Below, piece by piece: positions 38,952-42,782 of a stretch of DNA of 64,000 bases (its first letter is position 1; each line of letters starts with the position of its first letter). Source of the DNA: Coriobacteriia bacterium (GTDB taxonomy: Bacteria > Actinomycetota > Coriobacteriia > Anaerosomatales > JAAXUF01); assembly GCA_013336165.1 (NCBI GenBank), contig JAAXUF010000001.1, forward strand, positions 248,001-312,000. The letters run 5' to 3'. The notes beneath the pieces were generated by a model. It saw only the letters and a program-made list of their open reading frames with translations, was not told the DNA's origin and made no database searches. A program made the translations under genes and the position numbers.

Positions 38952-38976
38952 ATGGTGGAGCCTAGGGGGATCGAAC
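38952..38976. repeat. Left attachment repeat (tRNA-Ala 3' fragment)
   Basis: 25 bp identical to 42706-42730, the acceptor stem/T-arm end of tRNA-Ala(GGC) including CCA. Identity stops after ATCGAAC on one side, as expected for a tyrosine-recombinase crossover core. Confidence 0.85.
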
Positions 38977-39114
38977 TCGTCAGTAGTGCTTTCAGACACT
39001 CTCGTGTGGTACCGCACGGAACGACGTTCGCGCAGTTCAGAGGCCGTTTTCCGCCCAATTCACATTCTGTCAGTCTCACATGGTTTCGAGGCATTTCAGA
39101 GCGTTATTCGAGTG

Positions 39115-39138
39115 CATGGCGACGGAATGGCGACGGAA
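39115..39138. repeat. Left arm repeat, tandem TGGCGACGGAA
   Basis: A 24-bp sequence made of CA plus two tandem copies of the 11-mer TGGCGACGGAA, identical to 42594-42617. It lies 138 bp inside the left attachment repeat and is in the same orientation as the right copy; a candidate integrase arm-binding site. Confidence 0.7.
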
Positions 39139-39322
39139 AGCGGCGGCCGCGTACTAGCTTCTGGCGTGGCCACGCAATGACCCACGTACGCGCGGAAGGC
39201 CGACCGGCGTCAAAGACAGGAGCGCCCCGTGAGTGCTAGGTTGACAACTCCCCGGGCGAACGCCCGCCTGCGCCGTGAGCGTTGGAAGCGACGCAGTTCG
39301 CCGAAACCTAGGCGTGGTATCG

Positions 39323-39351
39323 TTGACAAAGGCGGGGATCACGGGTATACC
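39323..39351 (+). promoter_or_regulatory. Promoter of the NYN nuclease leader
   Basis: TTGACA (39323-39328), 17-bp spacer, TATACC (39346-39351): a near-consensus sigma-70 promoter. Transcription would start near 39358, about 70 nt before the nuclease ATG. A second TTGACA at 39241 has no matching -10. Confidence 0.75.
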
Positions 39352-39365
39352 TTGGTTAACTTCCT

Positions 39366-39411
39366 CTGAGATGCGTCTCAGGGCGTAGGAACCGCCTTCG
39401 GGCGGTTTCTG
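39366..39411 (+). terminator. Leader hairpin and UUCG terminator before the NYN gene
   Basis: Two stem-loops in the leader. The first is CTGAGA-TGCG-TCTCAG (39366-39381). The second is AACCGCC-TTCG-GGCGGTT (39390-39407), a 7-bp stem capped by a cUUCGg tetraloop and followed by TTTCT, a compact intrinsic terminator. It ends about 20 nt before the ATG of the NYN gene, so the promoter either makes a short RNA of about 50 nt or is attenuated. Confidence 0.65.
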
Positions 39412-39429
39412 CATTCTAGGGGGAAGTTC

Positions 39430-40113
39430 ATGGATGAGCCGGTGCGAGTTCGCGCAAGGGTCTACTTCGACGGGTTCAACTTCTACTACGGAGCGTTCGT
39501 GGACAAGAACGGTGGTCCGAGTCCTCGTGCAGCCTACAAATGGCTGGATCTCCGTCGATTCTGCGAGAACGTACTGCCGCGCACGTATGACATCGGTGTC
39601 ATAAGGTACTTCACCACCCCCTCGTTCGACGCTCCAGCCGGGAATGCTCGTACGCGGCAGTTCACGTACCTCAGTGCCCTCGAAGAGTACAGCGACATCA
39701 CCGTACACAGCGACAGCCACTTCGAACGTCGCACGAAAAAACGAAGGCTTGCCAATCCCGAGAACCATACGTGCGGGCGCGAAAAGGTCACGGTGTCGTA
39801 CTTGGAGGAGAAGGGCGCCGATGTGAACCTCGCGACCCATCTACTTCTCGACTGCTTCAATGAGGAGTTCGAGGTCGCTGTGATCGTCTCCGACGACTCG
39901 GATTTGCAGGGCACAGTCAATGCAGTGATCAGGAACTTCCATAAGGACGTTGTCGTGATCAACGTACGAAAGCGCACCAACAGCTATGACGGCGCCCTTG
40001 AAGTCTTCAAGGCAAGCAAGCCTGAATACTACACGAACAATCAGCTGCCGCTGGAAATCGCACTCTCCGGGGGCAAGACGCTACGCTGCCCCGTTGCTTG
40101 GGGCGGCCCTTGA
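39430..40113 (+). CDS. NYN-domain (PIN-like) nuclease
   Basis: 227 residues. The fold signature is clear: RVYFDGFNFYYG near residue 11 with the first Asp, EKGADVNLATHLLLD near 137 with the second acidic group, and VIVSDDSDL near 158 with the third. These give the metal site of NYN/PIN RNases. Between them is a basic stretch (ERRTKKRRLANP) that could bind nucleic acid. The ATG has AGGGGG 7 nt upstream. It is the only plus-strand cargo gene of the island and has its own promoter and a terminator-containing leader. Role unknown; RNA cleavage in defence or in element control is possible. Confidence 0.85.
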   Translation: MDEPVRVRARVYFDGFNFYYGAFVDKNGGPSPRAAYKWLDLRRFCENVLPRTYDIGVIRYFTTPSFDAPAGNARTRQFTYLSALEEYSDITVHSDSHFERRTKKRRLANPENHTCGREKVTVSYLEEKGADVNLATHLLLDCFNEEFEVAVIVSDDSDLQGTVNAVIRNFHKDVVVINVRKRTNSYDGALEVFKASKPEYYTNNQLPLEIALSGGKTLRCPVAWGGP

Positions 40114-40124
40114 CCTGAATGCTC

Positions 40125-40952
40125 CTAGAGGTCCGAGCAATCCCACCCCTGCGGCAACGCATCGATCAGAGGCGCCGGGTCGTACTTCAGACCAATGTCG
40201 CTCAAGGCGCCGAGCGTCGCGTGAGCGAACACGAGTGCCTGCAATGCCATTGAGGCGCTCTTGAATGCCGCATCATGACGATCCCGTACACACAGCCGCG
40301 AATCGTGCTTGACCAGGTAGTCGCTCGCCAGCCCCGGACTGCCGTGAGTATGCTCGCACAAATACTGATACCCCCGAAATAGGTCGAGAGTATCGGGGTA
40401 TTTCGCGTTTGCGATTTCGGCCGCTTGGCGGATTGTCTTGCGCGTCCAGCGATCCTTCAGCAGGTATCTGCCTGCCTTAGTCTTGCTCACCTTCTTGATG
40501 TCTTGCTGCGTCTTCTCTGCCGCAATCCTGCGCGCTTCCGCCCAATCGGCTTCGATCAGTCTCTCAAGGTCCTCGAAGTCGCATGGGATATCGGTCCCCT
40601 GAGGATCGTCTGTGACCATCTTGTACGCGTAATAGCGGCGCCGACTCCCATGCTGACGCCACTGCTCACAGAGAGCAACTGGATCTGTGGCGATGTATCT
40701 AACGTCTGCAACGTCCTGCAGCATGCTCCTCAGGAGTGACTGCGACTCTACCCCAAACGAGCTACGACATAGCAGTGCTACAGCCGAAAGAAGGCGAGAG
40801 GTGCGAACACCGTAGAACGCACACACCACCGCAGCTGAGGGGCCGTACGTCCCGAGCACCTCAATGCCTGCACCCAGCCCGGCGGTCAGCGCCCCCGCGC
40901 GTTCGGAGGCAGTAATCAGAACCAGCCGCCGCGTCTCCTCTTGTGTTGTCAC
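40125..40952 (-). CDS. Hypothetical protein, DUF5677-like
   Basis: 275 residues, largely helical and not clearly membrane-bound. Segments such as SQSLLRSMLQDVADVRYIA, ALCEQWRQHGSRRRYYAYK and YQYLCEHTHGSPG resemble DUF5677-type proteins, which are frequent in mobile and defence-associated islands; the match is by eye only. It lies tail to tail with the NYN gene (11-bp gap) and is last in the minus-strand cassette. Base composition is lower in GC than the housekeeping genes. No catalytic motif recognised. Confidence 0.65.
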   Translation of the reverse strand: MTTQEETRRLVLITASERAGALTAGLGAGIEVLGTYGPSAAVVCAFYGVRTSRLLSAVALLCRSSFGVESQSLLRSMLQDVADVRYIATDPVALCEQWRQHGSRRRYYAYKMVTDDPQGTDIPCDFEDLERLIEADWAEARRIAAEKTQQDIKKVSKTKAGRYLLKDRWTRKTIRQAAEIANAKYPDTLDLFRGYQYLCEHTHGSPGLASDYLVKHDSRLCVRDRHDAAFKSASMALQALVFAHATLGALSDIGLKYDPAPLIDALPQGWDCSDL

Positions 40953-41040
40953 TCAAACTCCTCTTCGAGACTAATCCAGGACGGACGATCATTCGAAGAG
41001 CACGACAAAGACTCCCGAGACACCGGTCCAAGAATCATCC

Positions 41041-41529
41041 TCACCTGAAGAGCCCCGTGCTTCGCTCCACGCGAACCGACACGCCCACATCGGCAAAATG
41101 CCTGCAGAGTCCGAACATCGTTTCGAGAAGACGCCCTGCGGCCTCGTCGGAGACTCTGCCCAACATGGAATCACGGTCAATCCGCACGGTCGTCTCCTCA
41201 GCGGCGCCGACACCGCACACGACGATGCTCAACTCCGTGACCGCAAGGCGATCCGACGCATTCGTGAAGTCGTAACGGCCATGATGCGGCATGTTGAGTT
41301 CAGCCCTGACGATGCGATCATTCGGCACGAACTCCACCGCATGTGTCCTGACTGCGCCGCCCCTGCTCTCCGATAGTAGCCATAGCCCCTCTTCAGTATC
41401 CGACAGCATCTTCAAGGGCTCGTTGTGCGCGCCTGATAGAGCGGTCCACGTCTTCGAATCAAGCCCTGCGAATTGGAGAAGCTGATCCGCATCGTCCCAG
41501 CCTGTGACCGCGCCCTGTGTTATCGACAT
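41041..41529 (-). CDS. Hypothetical protein of the island cassette
   Basis: 162 residues from the ATG at 41529, which follows GAGGGAGA closely; a TTG 9 codons earlier is possible. It is acidic, of mixed alpha/beta character by eye, with no Cys cluster, no membrane segment and no motif I recognise. The C-terminal part (FGLCRHFADVGVSVRVE) looks like a folded end. It lies between the zinc-ribbon gene (133-bp gap) and the DUF5677-like gene (88-bp gap), all on the minus strand. Function unknown. Confidence 0.6.
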   Translation of the reverse strand: MSITQGAVTGWDDADQLLQFAGLDSKTWTALSGAHNEPLKMLSDTEEGLWLLSESRGGAVRTHAVEFVPNDRIVRAELNMPHHGRYDFTNASDRLAVTELSIVVCGVGAAEETTVRIDRDSMLGRVSDEAAGRLLETMFGLCRHFADVGVSVRVERSTGLFR

Positions 41530-41662
41530 GTCTCCCTCATCCCTACTGTCTGCCAACCGCTCGTGCCCACACGATCGAAACCTACCTCAGAGCAATCATA
41601 GCGCGGACGACTGACATTCACGCATCCTTCCGCTCGACGGGCGGCGCAACGTCGGTCAGCCA

Positions 41663-41968
41663 TTAGTTGCGCAACGACGTCCTCTGGCGCTTAAGCCTTC
41701 CGTCGGCCCTCCGTGCATCGTTGTACGCACGGCTCTTGCACAGAGCAGAGCAGTATCTGATCTGGAGGTTCCCCGTGACCTTCCCGCCGCAATAGGCGCA
41801 CGCACGTTCGACGGACTGACGAACGGCTGTTAGTGCACGTTCGCGTCGCAGCTGCTCGCGCGTTTGCCACGTTCGCGCACACTCCGGTGAGCAAACCCTC
41901 GGAACGCCTCCACGAACGTCATGCGTGAACGTTCTTCCACAGACTCGACAAGTGAGTTCTCTGATCAT
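41663..41968 (-). CDS. Small double zinc-ribbon protein
   Basis: 101 residues with two Cys4 clusters: CRVCG...VCSPEC (about residues 7-30) and CAYCGG...YCSALC (about 57-77), the latter followed by a basic KSRAYNDARRADGR helix. This resembles the zinc ribbons of phage and mobile-element DNA-binding proteins. The basic tail suggests nucleic-acid binding, so a regulator of the cassette is plausible. The ATG has AGGAG 7 to 8 nt upstream. It follows the small 51-aa frame by 10 bp. Confidence 0.72.
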   Translation of the reverse strand: MIRELTCRVCGRTFTHDVRGGVPRVCSPECARTWQTREQLRRERALTAVRQSVERACAYCGGKVTGNLQIRYCSALCKSRAYNDARRADGRLKRQRTSLRN

Positions 41969-41978
41969 TTCTTGGCTC

Positions 41979-42134
41979 CTAAAGACGCTCTATCTCGTAC
42001 AGAGACGGAGAGATTCGGGCATTCGAGGCTCTGTGGGCACTGGAGCTGAAACGTTGTAACCCGTACAGAACCCTGCACGCACCACCTTCCAGGGCGGCAA
42101 GAGGGTATGGCACGGGAGGGATGGCCAGGGTCAT
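41979..42134 (-). CDS. Possible 51-residue protein
   Basis: A short frame starting MTLAIPPVPYPLAALEGGAC. The ATG overlaps the stop of the coiled-coil protein by 4 bp (ATGA) and has GGGAGAG at good spacing, which is why I list it. Composition is not convincing for a folded protein and nothing is recognised. It could equally be non-coding spacer. Confidence 0.3.
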   Translation of the reverse strand: MTLAIPPVPYPLAALEGGACRVLYGLQRFSSSAHRASNARISPSLYEIERL

Positions 42135-42298
42135 AAGGCACTCTCCCGGAGCACGCCGACGAGGCATTCGATCGCCTGCTTGAGTTCCTCGCACTCTTTG
42201 GTGTTGGCCTTCGCCCGCTTCTCCCAGAGTCGGCTGTAGTATGTGACGCGTTCGAGTTCAGCCTTGAGCGACTCGATCGTTTCGATCTGGTCGGTCAT
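42131..42298 (-). CDS. Small coiled-coil protein
   Basis: 55 residues: MTDQIETIESLKAELERVTYY onward, with a Leu-rich heptad-like pattern over residues 7-50, rich in Lys and Glu. It is typical in size and composition of small phage or integrative-element proteins. It is the first gene of the minus-strand cassette, starting beside the truncated integrase. Shine-Dalgarno weak. The open frame extends 44 codons upstream antisense to the integrase, which I regard as non-coding. Function unknown. Confidence 0.5.
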   Translation of the reverse strand: MTDQIETIESLKAELERVTYYSRLWEKRAKANTKECEELKQAIECLVGVLRESAL

Positions 42299-42301
42299 GC
42301 G

Positions 42302-42571
42302 ATACGCCCAACAACGGTCTCTCGCATGTTCCGAACGATGGTGGACAAGAACGGTTTGGAAGGCATCCGCTTCCATGATTGTCGGCATGCTCACGCGACG
42401 ATTCTTCTGCGCAATGGGGTACCGCCTCATGTCGTTCAGAACCGCCTAGGGCACTCTGACGTGGCGATCACGTTGCGCGTGTATTCGCACGTTCTGCCGC
42501 AACAAGAGCGCGATGCTGTGGACACCTTCGCCGCAGGCATTGAGCGCGCCGTGGCTGCTCAGAGAGGGTGA
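42302..42571 (+). pseudogene. 5'-truncated tyrosine integrase
   Basis: Only the C-terminal catalytic part remains, about 90 codons. Recognisable homology begins near RPTTVSRMFRTMV and covers box II, RFHDCRHAHATILL (His-x-x-Arg), the RLGHSD His and the catalytic Tyr in LRVYSHV. The N-terminal arm- and core-binding domains and the first catalytic Arg are missing; that DNA is occupied by the coiled-coil gene on the other strand. An ATG at 42326 could start an 81-aa fragment, but it cannot be an active recombinase. It sits next to tRNA-Ala, the expected place of the integrase. Confidence 0.85.
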
Positions 42572-42593
42572 CTGAAATCATGATATCGGCGTA

Positions 42594-42617
42594 CATGGCG
42601 ACGGAATGGCGACGGAA
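42594..42617. repeat. Right arm repeat, tandem TGGCGACGGAA
   Basis: Identical to 39115-39138, in the same orientation, 22 bp after the integrase remnant and 88 bp before the right attachment repeat. Candidate integrase arm-binding site. Confidence 0.7.
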
Positions 42618-42705
42618 GACAGTATCTGAGCCTCACGCTCAAGAGCGCGCTTCCCTCTTTACGCAGGTAAACCCGCCATTTTCACAGCGGGCCTACAGAA
42701 ATATC

Positions 42706-42730
42706 ATGGTGGAGCCTAGGGGGATCGAAC
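42706..42730. repeat. Right attachment repeat within tRNA-Ala
   Basis: The 3' 25 bp of the tRNA gene region (T-arm side, acceptor, discriminator and CCA, plus one base), identical to 38952-38976. It defines the right boundary of the island. Confidence 0.85.
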
Positions 42731-42782
42731 CCCTGACCTTCTGGCTGCCAGCCAGACGCTCTCCCAGCTGAGCTAAGGCCCC
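42707..42782 (-). tRNA. tRNA-Ala (anticodon GGC)
   Basis: 76 nt including encoded CCA. Acceptor GGGGCCT pairs with AGGCTCC (one G-U). D-arm GCTC/GAGC; the anticodon stem CTGGC/GCCAG holds loop TGGCAGC-type with GGC anticodon; the T-arm contains GGTTCGATCC. Discriminator A. GGC reads GCC and GCU alanine codons. Its 3' end served as the integration target of the island. Confidence 0.95.

Follow-up and report, generated by a model that had tools for sequence, protein, structure and literature searches.

A small structured RNA accompanies the NYN nuclease HEC-09 in a decayed island at tRNA-Ala

Results and discussion

Remnant of an integrated element at tRNA-Ala

The window analysed here, a stretch of 64,000 nucleotides (64 kb) from a Coriobacteriia bacterium, contains a 3.8-kb island adjoining a tRNA-Ala gene. 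Two identical copies of the 25-bp direct repeat ATGGTGGAGCCTAGGGGGATCGAAC delimit a segment of 3.75 kb. The right attachment repeat (42706-42730, + strand) forms the 3' end of a tRNA-Ala(GGC) gene that is intact, lies on the minus strand (42707-42782; ARAGORN, Rfam tRNA 65.4 bits) and served as the integration target, and the left one (38952-38976, +) is a displaced copy of the same tRNA end, with 25/25 identity. A search of the 1.99-Mb genome placed the repeat at these two positions only when up to 3 mismatches were allowed, and the stretch examined around the island (30.0-52.0 kb) contained no third copy. A second pair of repeats, ATGGCGACGGAATGGCGACGGAA, lies inside the attachment copies, one at each end of the island; the left repeat (ATGGCGACGGA x2, 39116-39138, +) recurs as the same 23-mer on the right (42595-42617, +), and the position of the pair makes it look like integrase arm-type sites. 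Next to the tRNA gene is the C-terminal remnant of a tyrosine integrase (42326-42571, +; Pfam Phage_integrase, E = 6.5e-15; PHROG integrase, E = 2.9e-22), which is without its N-terminal part. In a related genome (G013), an integrase at the same tRNA has an open frame of 421 aa, and the remnant aligns with the C-terminal end of that frame.

The sequence-only reading of this DNA had described identical 25-bp repeats as the bounds of the island, one of them belonging to an intact tRNA-Ala, at its 3' end, and the other displaced, with a truncated tyrosine integrase beside the tRNA. Each of these points was borne out: the repeats match at 25 of 25 positions with no third genomic copy, ARAGORN finds the tRNA gene intact, and both Pfam and PHROG recognise the fragment as a genuine integrase C-terminus. 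The repeat is not scattered through the genome (no further copy within 3 mismatches), and no relative was found to carry the same genes at this place without the second repeat copy. The duplication of a tRNA 3' end together with an integrase at the site, here a truncated one, is what characterises tRNA-integrated mobile elements. The island is real. It represents what is left of an integrated mobile element, most likely an eroded tRNA-Ala-integrating prophage, most of whose integrase is gone.

The tRNA-Ala locus in related genomes

Comparison of the tRNA-Ala locus among relatives, which had been proposed along with the island, recovered the ancestral order LeuRS - tRNA-Ala - EamA. To the right of the tRNA gene the order EamA - RsfS - LytR - HD - NadD is uniform in nearly all readable relatives (one locus, L039, is too short to judge, and extra genes intervene in a few relatives), and the 3' side is variable. 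In a genome of the same family (G001) LeuRS lies 97 bp from tRNA-Ala, which represents an empty site, and LeuRS is found within about 1 kb of the tRNA in several other relatives. Integrases related to the fragment in the window adjoin tRNA-Ala in G057, G012 and G013, with longer frames in G057 and G013, and in G057 a displaced attachment copy lies 8.4 kb away from the tRNA. Because of these related integrases and the attachment copy in G057, we conclude that the tRNA-Ala gene is an integration hotspot and that the window holds a decayed element there. The element in G057 (locus L035, contig C14) spans 8.4 kb and has both a long open integrase frame and the displaced copy. Integration at tRNA-Ala, as originally claimed, is thus well supported by the unique attachment pair, the arm-type repeats, the integrase remnant, the conserved LeuRS - tRNA - EamA order and the related integrases.

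LeuRS ends at about 31.07 kb in the window, and 7.8 kb separate it from the left attachment copy. The intervening block (31.1-38.9 kb) encodes CcdA/TlpA-like, acyltransferase, beta-lactamase-like and LuxR proteins and a Tat-exported FAD/FMN reductase, and it is missing at the tRNA-Ala locus of all relatives examined. The exact empty site of the species itself was not seen among the relatives compared, since the set contains no congeneric genome and the flank at 31.1-38.9 kb is not conserved.

Cargo of the island

The cargo consists, as first described, of an NYN-domain gene (39430-40113, +) followed by a run of small minus-strand genes. The latter comprise a DUF5677 protein of 275 aa (40125-40952, -; Pfam DUF5677, E = 6e-13) with a 58% relative in G026, an ORF of 171 aa with no family match (41041-41556, -), a small zinc-ribbon/HNH-like phage protein of 101 aa (41663-41968, -; PHROG 1271 HNH endonuclease, E = 4.4e-9), and a possible coiled-coil ORF of 99 aa (42131-42430, -; PHROG 9857, E = 6e-5), a weak candidate that lies opposite the integrase fragment and overlaps it. 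The earlier inventory was correct in the cargo that it listed and overlooked two things, an RNA gene at 39362-39415 and the non-conserved flank at 31.1-38.9 kb. The four minus-strand ORFs were considered as partners of the NYN gene and rejected, as none of them occurs in any NYN locus retrieved. Judged by co-occurrence, the recurring unit is the NYN gene plus a small structured RNA, and not the whole cargo.

Between the left arm-type repeat and the RNA gene lies a conserved GC-rich non-coding element (39152-39282, +). It was rejected as an NYN-linked RNA, as two of its three genomic copies stand at prophage ends without an NYN gene. The copies are those in the window, at C16:1942-2084 (56/63 identity to C16:1942) and, on the minus strand, near 236657 of contig C3, where the core is present. 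On C16 and C3 the element follows amidase and holin-like genes, and in all three places it is followed by a terminator-like hairpin; its hairpins appear to be retained despite sequence change. No Rfam match and no copy in 149 relatives or in viral contigs was found. A 17-mer of its core has four IMG/VR matches, which aligned with unrelated sequence and were taken as chance, and the amidase of the neighbouring prophage had no match in viral contigs. The contig ends C16:1-2850 (L005) and C3:233000-238632 (L006) carry near-identical prophage tail and lysis genes (98% over 133 aa), with the C16 prophage end near tRNA-Arg(CCT), and this suggests that a pair of related prophages caused the assembly to break there.

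The NYN protein belongs to HEC-09

The NYN gene (39430-40113, +) encodes 227 aa and matches Pfam NYN (E = 1e-5), PHROG 7929 (E = 2.2e-29) and the PADLOC family HEC-09. The match to the HEC-09 profile PDLC04163 covers residues 8-224 of 227 and profile positions 3-202 of 203 (E = 4.6e-32), which places the protein in the family, and all 37 aligned homologs (37/37) match both HEC-09 and Pfam NYN. Residues Y12, D14, N17, E127, K128, D131, D156 and D158 are invariant across the 37 homologs. The AlphaFold (AF2) model has a pLDDT of 92.2 and a pTM of 0.88, and the solved folds nearest to it by Foldseek are VPA0982 (2qip) and the MARF1 NYN domain. Comparison thus supports both the fold and the conserved acidic active-site residues of NYN-domain (PIN-like) RNases, and we regard the protein as a predicted RNase of the MARF1-type NYN fold whose substrate would be RNA. 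Homologs are present on plasmids and in IMG/VR contigs, and in the protein tree the branch of the window protein is long.

HEC-09 reportedly derives from a preprint by Payne et al. (2024). The cargo had been guessed to serve in defence, and this guess is strengthened in that the NYN protein belongs to a candidate defence family (PADLOC, E = 4.6e-32); the cargo is not to be taken as a single unit, however, the minus-strand genes not co-occurring with NYN elsewhere. No defence gene was noted beside the NYN gene in the window region examined, the PADLOC run covering the island proteins only. The acronym HEC denotes an Hma-embedded candidate (PMC12111858), and some HECs defend against phages (PMC12988326). 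In one survey of Pseudomonas, HEC-09 correlated with phage susceptibility and not with resistance (PMC12447246), and no phenotype of HEC-09 itself was found in the open-licence literature searched.

A two-hairpin RNA gene precedes the NYN gene

When the regions ahead of NYN homologs within the same order were compared, a shared stretch with two hairpins emerged. In the window, this HEC-09-associated RNA (39362-39415, +) is approximately 55-65 nt long and lies between a promoter and the NYN start, and its second hairpin is an intrinsic terminator. The promoter, read from the sequence, is of the sigma-70 type (39323-39351, +; TTGACA - 17 nt - TATACC), and in most homologous loci the promoter stands at a similar distance from the RNA. 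The stretch 39360-39430 folds far better than its shuffled versions (z = -4.5). The layout, seen widely across the genomic and viral HEC-09 loci retrieved, begins with the promoter, continues with AUCCCCC-stem1-(UUCG-like loop)-GGGYGC and GC(G/A)AG-stem2-CUCUGC-UUUU, and ends with the NYN gene.

Unaltered sequences from other organisms, 12 in number and without the window copy, served as seeds of a covariance model, R1. In the 64-kb window R1 finds a single match, at 39362-39415 (+), with a modest score of 28.4 bits and E = 4e-4, R1 E-values being rough. Stem 1 of the window copy is changed in sequence with its pairing kept. Across 71 distinct sequences, 96.3% of the cells pair and 20/20 pairs show changes on both sides, counts which arise partly by construction and favour the model, as most seeds of R1 are in the alignment, which was fitted to the model. 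For covariation the score is 0.577, compared to 0.201 for shuffled alignments and at most 0.112 when the structure is slid along the alignment. Comparison thus shows the structure of the RNA, its promoter and its terminator, and likewise its pairing with the NYN gene and the two gene arrangements described below. Rfam 15 returned only tRNAs at E up to 1 for the window stretch and ten canonical loci, and no report of the RNA was found in the open-licence literature searched, which does not include the source preprint of HEC-09.

Association of the RNA with HEC-09 across genomes

The relationship between the RNA and the nuclease was assessed in HEC-09 loci, 80 of them genomic and 74 viral. R1 yields 73 matches in the 80 genomic loci, and the RNA adjoins the NYN gene in 68 of the 80. 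In 56 of these 68 it precedes the NYN match by 2-78 nt and shares its strand; in the remaining 12 it is downstream on the opposite strand, 1-25 nt past the stop codon. In either arrangement the distance from the -10 box to the RNA that follows it is mostly 11-14 nt. The convergent arrangement is also found in mycobacterial prophages (L083, L198), and one viral locus (L212) is divergent. Parsimony on the protein tree requires at least six changes of arrangement, of which the well-supported branches alone force one. Because it has its own promoter in either arrangement, the RNA is, on this comparative evidence, a separate gene and not a leader. In one further locus (L213, 2865-2985) the RNA occurs twice in tandem, upstream of a single NYN gene.

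An unbiased R1 scan of 396 genomes gave 16 matches, 11 of which touch independently found HEC-09 genes (one of them, in G251, is a seed) and 2 of which touch NYN remnants. The RNA occurs beside NYN relatives in at least 16 phyla, 15 from the tree labels plus Spirochaetota through a Leptospira plasmid. It is present on plasmids of E. coli (L297), Leptospira and Paenarthrobacter; among 5,426 complete genomes of E. coli, 4 contain the E. coli plasmid with the RNA, and the 3.46-kb E. coli plasmid pCPF6.4 carries a copy.

R1 fails on 12 of the 80 genomic loci and on 27 of the viral loci checked. A terminator hairpin stands just before the NYN gene in 24 of these 27 viral loci, compared to 87 of the 604 remaining genes there, which suggests that the R1-negative loci with such a hairpin hold diverged versions of the RNA. 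NYN genes also lie on plasmids of E. coli, Salmonella and Xanthomonas (L297-L303), with small enterobacterial plasmids of 3-5 kb among them, and in several R1-negative ones a terminator hairpin immediately precedes NYN, perhaps again a diverged RNA.

The RNA persists beside decayed NYN genes in L283, L270 and, as the upstream copy, in L170. Orphan RNAs without an intact NYN gene were observed in G053 (L082/L285), G428 (L278), G329 (L277), G273 (L282) and G021 (L290), and two orphans adjoin small ORFs that resemble, by eye, type II toxin-antitoxin genes (RelE/HigA-like).

Proposed function of the RNA-nuclease pair

These results lead us to favour, as the probable explanation, a nuclease restrained by its RNA in a type III-like manner, with the RNA as antitoxin. 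The RNA would be produced in excess from a strong promoter and would bind the NYN nuclease directly, neutralising it by holding it inactive; the nuclease itself would be made when transcription runs on beyond the terminator, while at loci with a downstream RNA a promoter of its own would serve. If a phage or a rival element disturbed host transcription, the short-lived RNA could be lost, and the freed, toxic nuclease would cut RNA and stop growth, acting in defence by abortive infection or else as an addiction to the element. The RNA outlives decayed NYN genes and occurs as orphans, and therefore a type III-like antitoxin fits best, since such a pattern would be expected were the RNA harmless and the nuclease costly. 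Against this reading weigh the correlation of HEC-09 with phage susceptibility, the single copy of the RNA at nearly all loci, the loci on which R1 fails and the modest score of the window copy.

An unlikely alternative sees the RNA as a positive partner, that is, a guide, cofactor or sensor that the NYN nuclease would require for recognising the RNA of phages or a certain host RNA. The strict conservation of structure, the second hairpin closed by GC...GC and the presence of one RNA per nuclease would all fit a ribonucleoprotein cofactor. However, no variable guide segment was seen, and the RNA copies beside broken NYN genes and the orphans suit an antitoxin better.

It is still less probable that the RNA acts mainly in cis, as a leader (attenuator) controlling NYN expression. 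At most loci the RNA with its terminator lies 2-78 nt upstream of the NYN match, and in the fold of 39360-39430 the 5' end of the window RNA (CUUCCUC) pairs with the NYN ribosome-binding site GGGGGAAG. This pairing is not general, however, several whole-genome RNA matches have no intact NYN gene, and the convergent arrangements (12 of 80 genomic loci and the mycobacterial prophages, with the RNA downstream on the opposite strand) contradict such a main role.

That the element is decayed and functionless, with the NYN-RNA pair a passenger awaiting loss, would agree with the truncated integrase, the anonymous other cargo and the long NYN branch, but is very improbable given that the NYN reading frame, the acidic residues, the promoter and the RNA pairing are all intact. 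The two-gene module of the island (RNA and NYN RNase) is apparently intact.

Since the RNA sits beside relatives of the nuclease in at least 16 phyla and on plasmids and phages, the data suggest that RNA and nuclease form an unrecognised immune or toxin-antitoxin pair. A candidate defence gene of this distribution has apparently been catalogued without half of its system, and if the RNA does restrain its partner, screens with NYN cloned by itself may have failed or given misleading results. More tentatively than the antitoxin reading itself, we speculate that HEC-09 could be a phylum-spanning toxin-antitoxin or abortive-infection RNA-protein pair, in which a single-copy two-hairpin RNA, of a family absent from Rfam, restrains an NYN/PIN-like RNase in a type III-like way with a new toxin fold. 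If true, it would add a further independent protein family placed under a dedicated RNA antitoxin, after the ToxN-like and Abi_2 proteins.

Comparison with known systems

PADLOC catalogues HEC-09 as a single-gene candidate defence system, of which the window NYN protein is a full-length match. The loci described here differ from that entry in having an RNA partner, none being mentioned in the open-licence literature searched. The closest solved folds to the HEC-09 NYN protein are the NYN domain of MARF1 and VPA0982 (2qip), and we know of no RNA gene associated with either.

The layout resembles that of type III toxin-antitoxin systems (ToxIN, CptIN, TenpIN), which likewise have a promoter, a structured RNA, a terminator and a ribonuclease gene in succession, occur on mobile elements and are linked to phages. 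The HEC-09 loci share with them an RNA gene with a terminator beside an endoribonuclease gene, the nuclease being assigned here by its fold. The type III antitoxins known so far usually consist of tandem repeats, whereas the HEC-09-associated RNA is a single copy in the window and at nearly all loci, with two copies in L213. The nuclease differs as well, having an NYN/PIN-like fold and not that of ToxN, CptN or TenpN, and the RNA is often downstream on the opposite strand, unlike in type III systems. Because neither the toxin fold nor the tandem repeats of type III systems are found, HEC-09 and its RNA fall outside the known type III families.

The nearest experimental analogue is the pair of AbiF (Abi_2) and the non-coding RNA RCd22 in C. 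difficile, in which a toxic phage-encoded protein is neutralised in cis and in trans by a neighbouring structured RNA through direct binding (PMC12373285). Both the protein family and the RNA of that pair differ from those of HEC-09.
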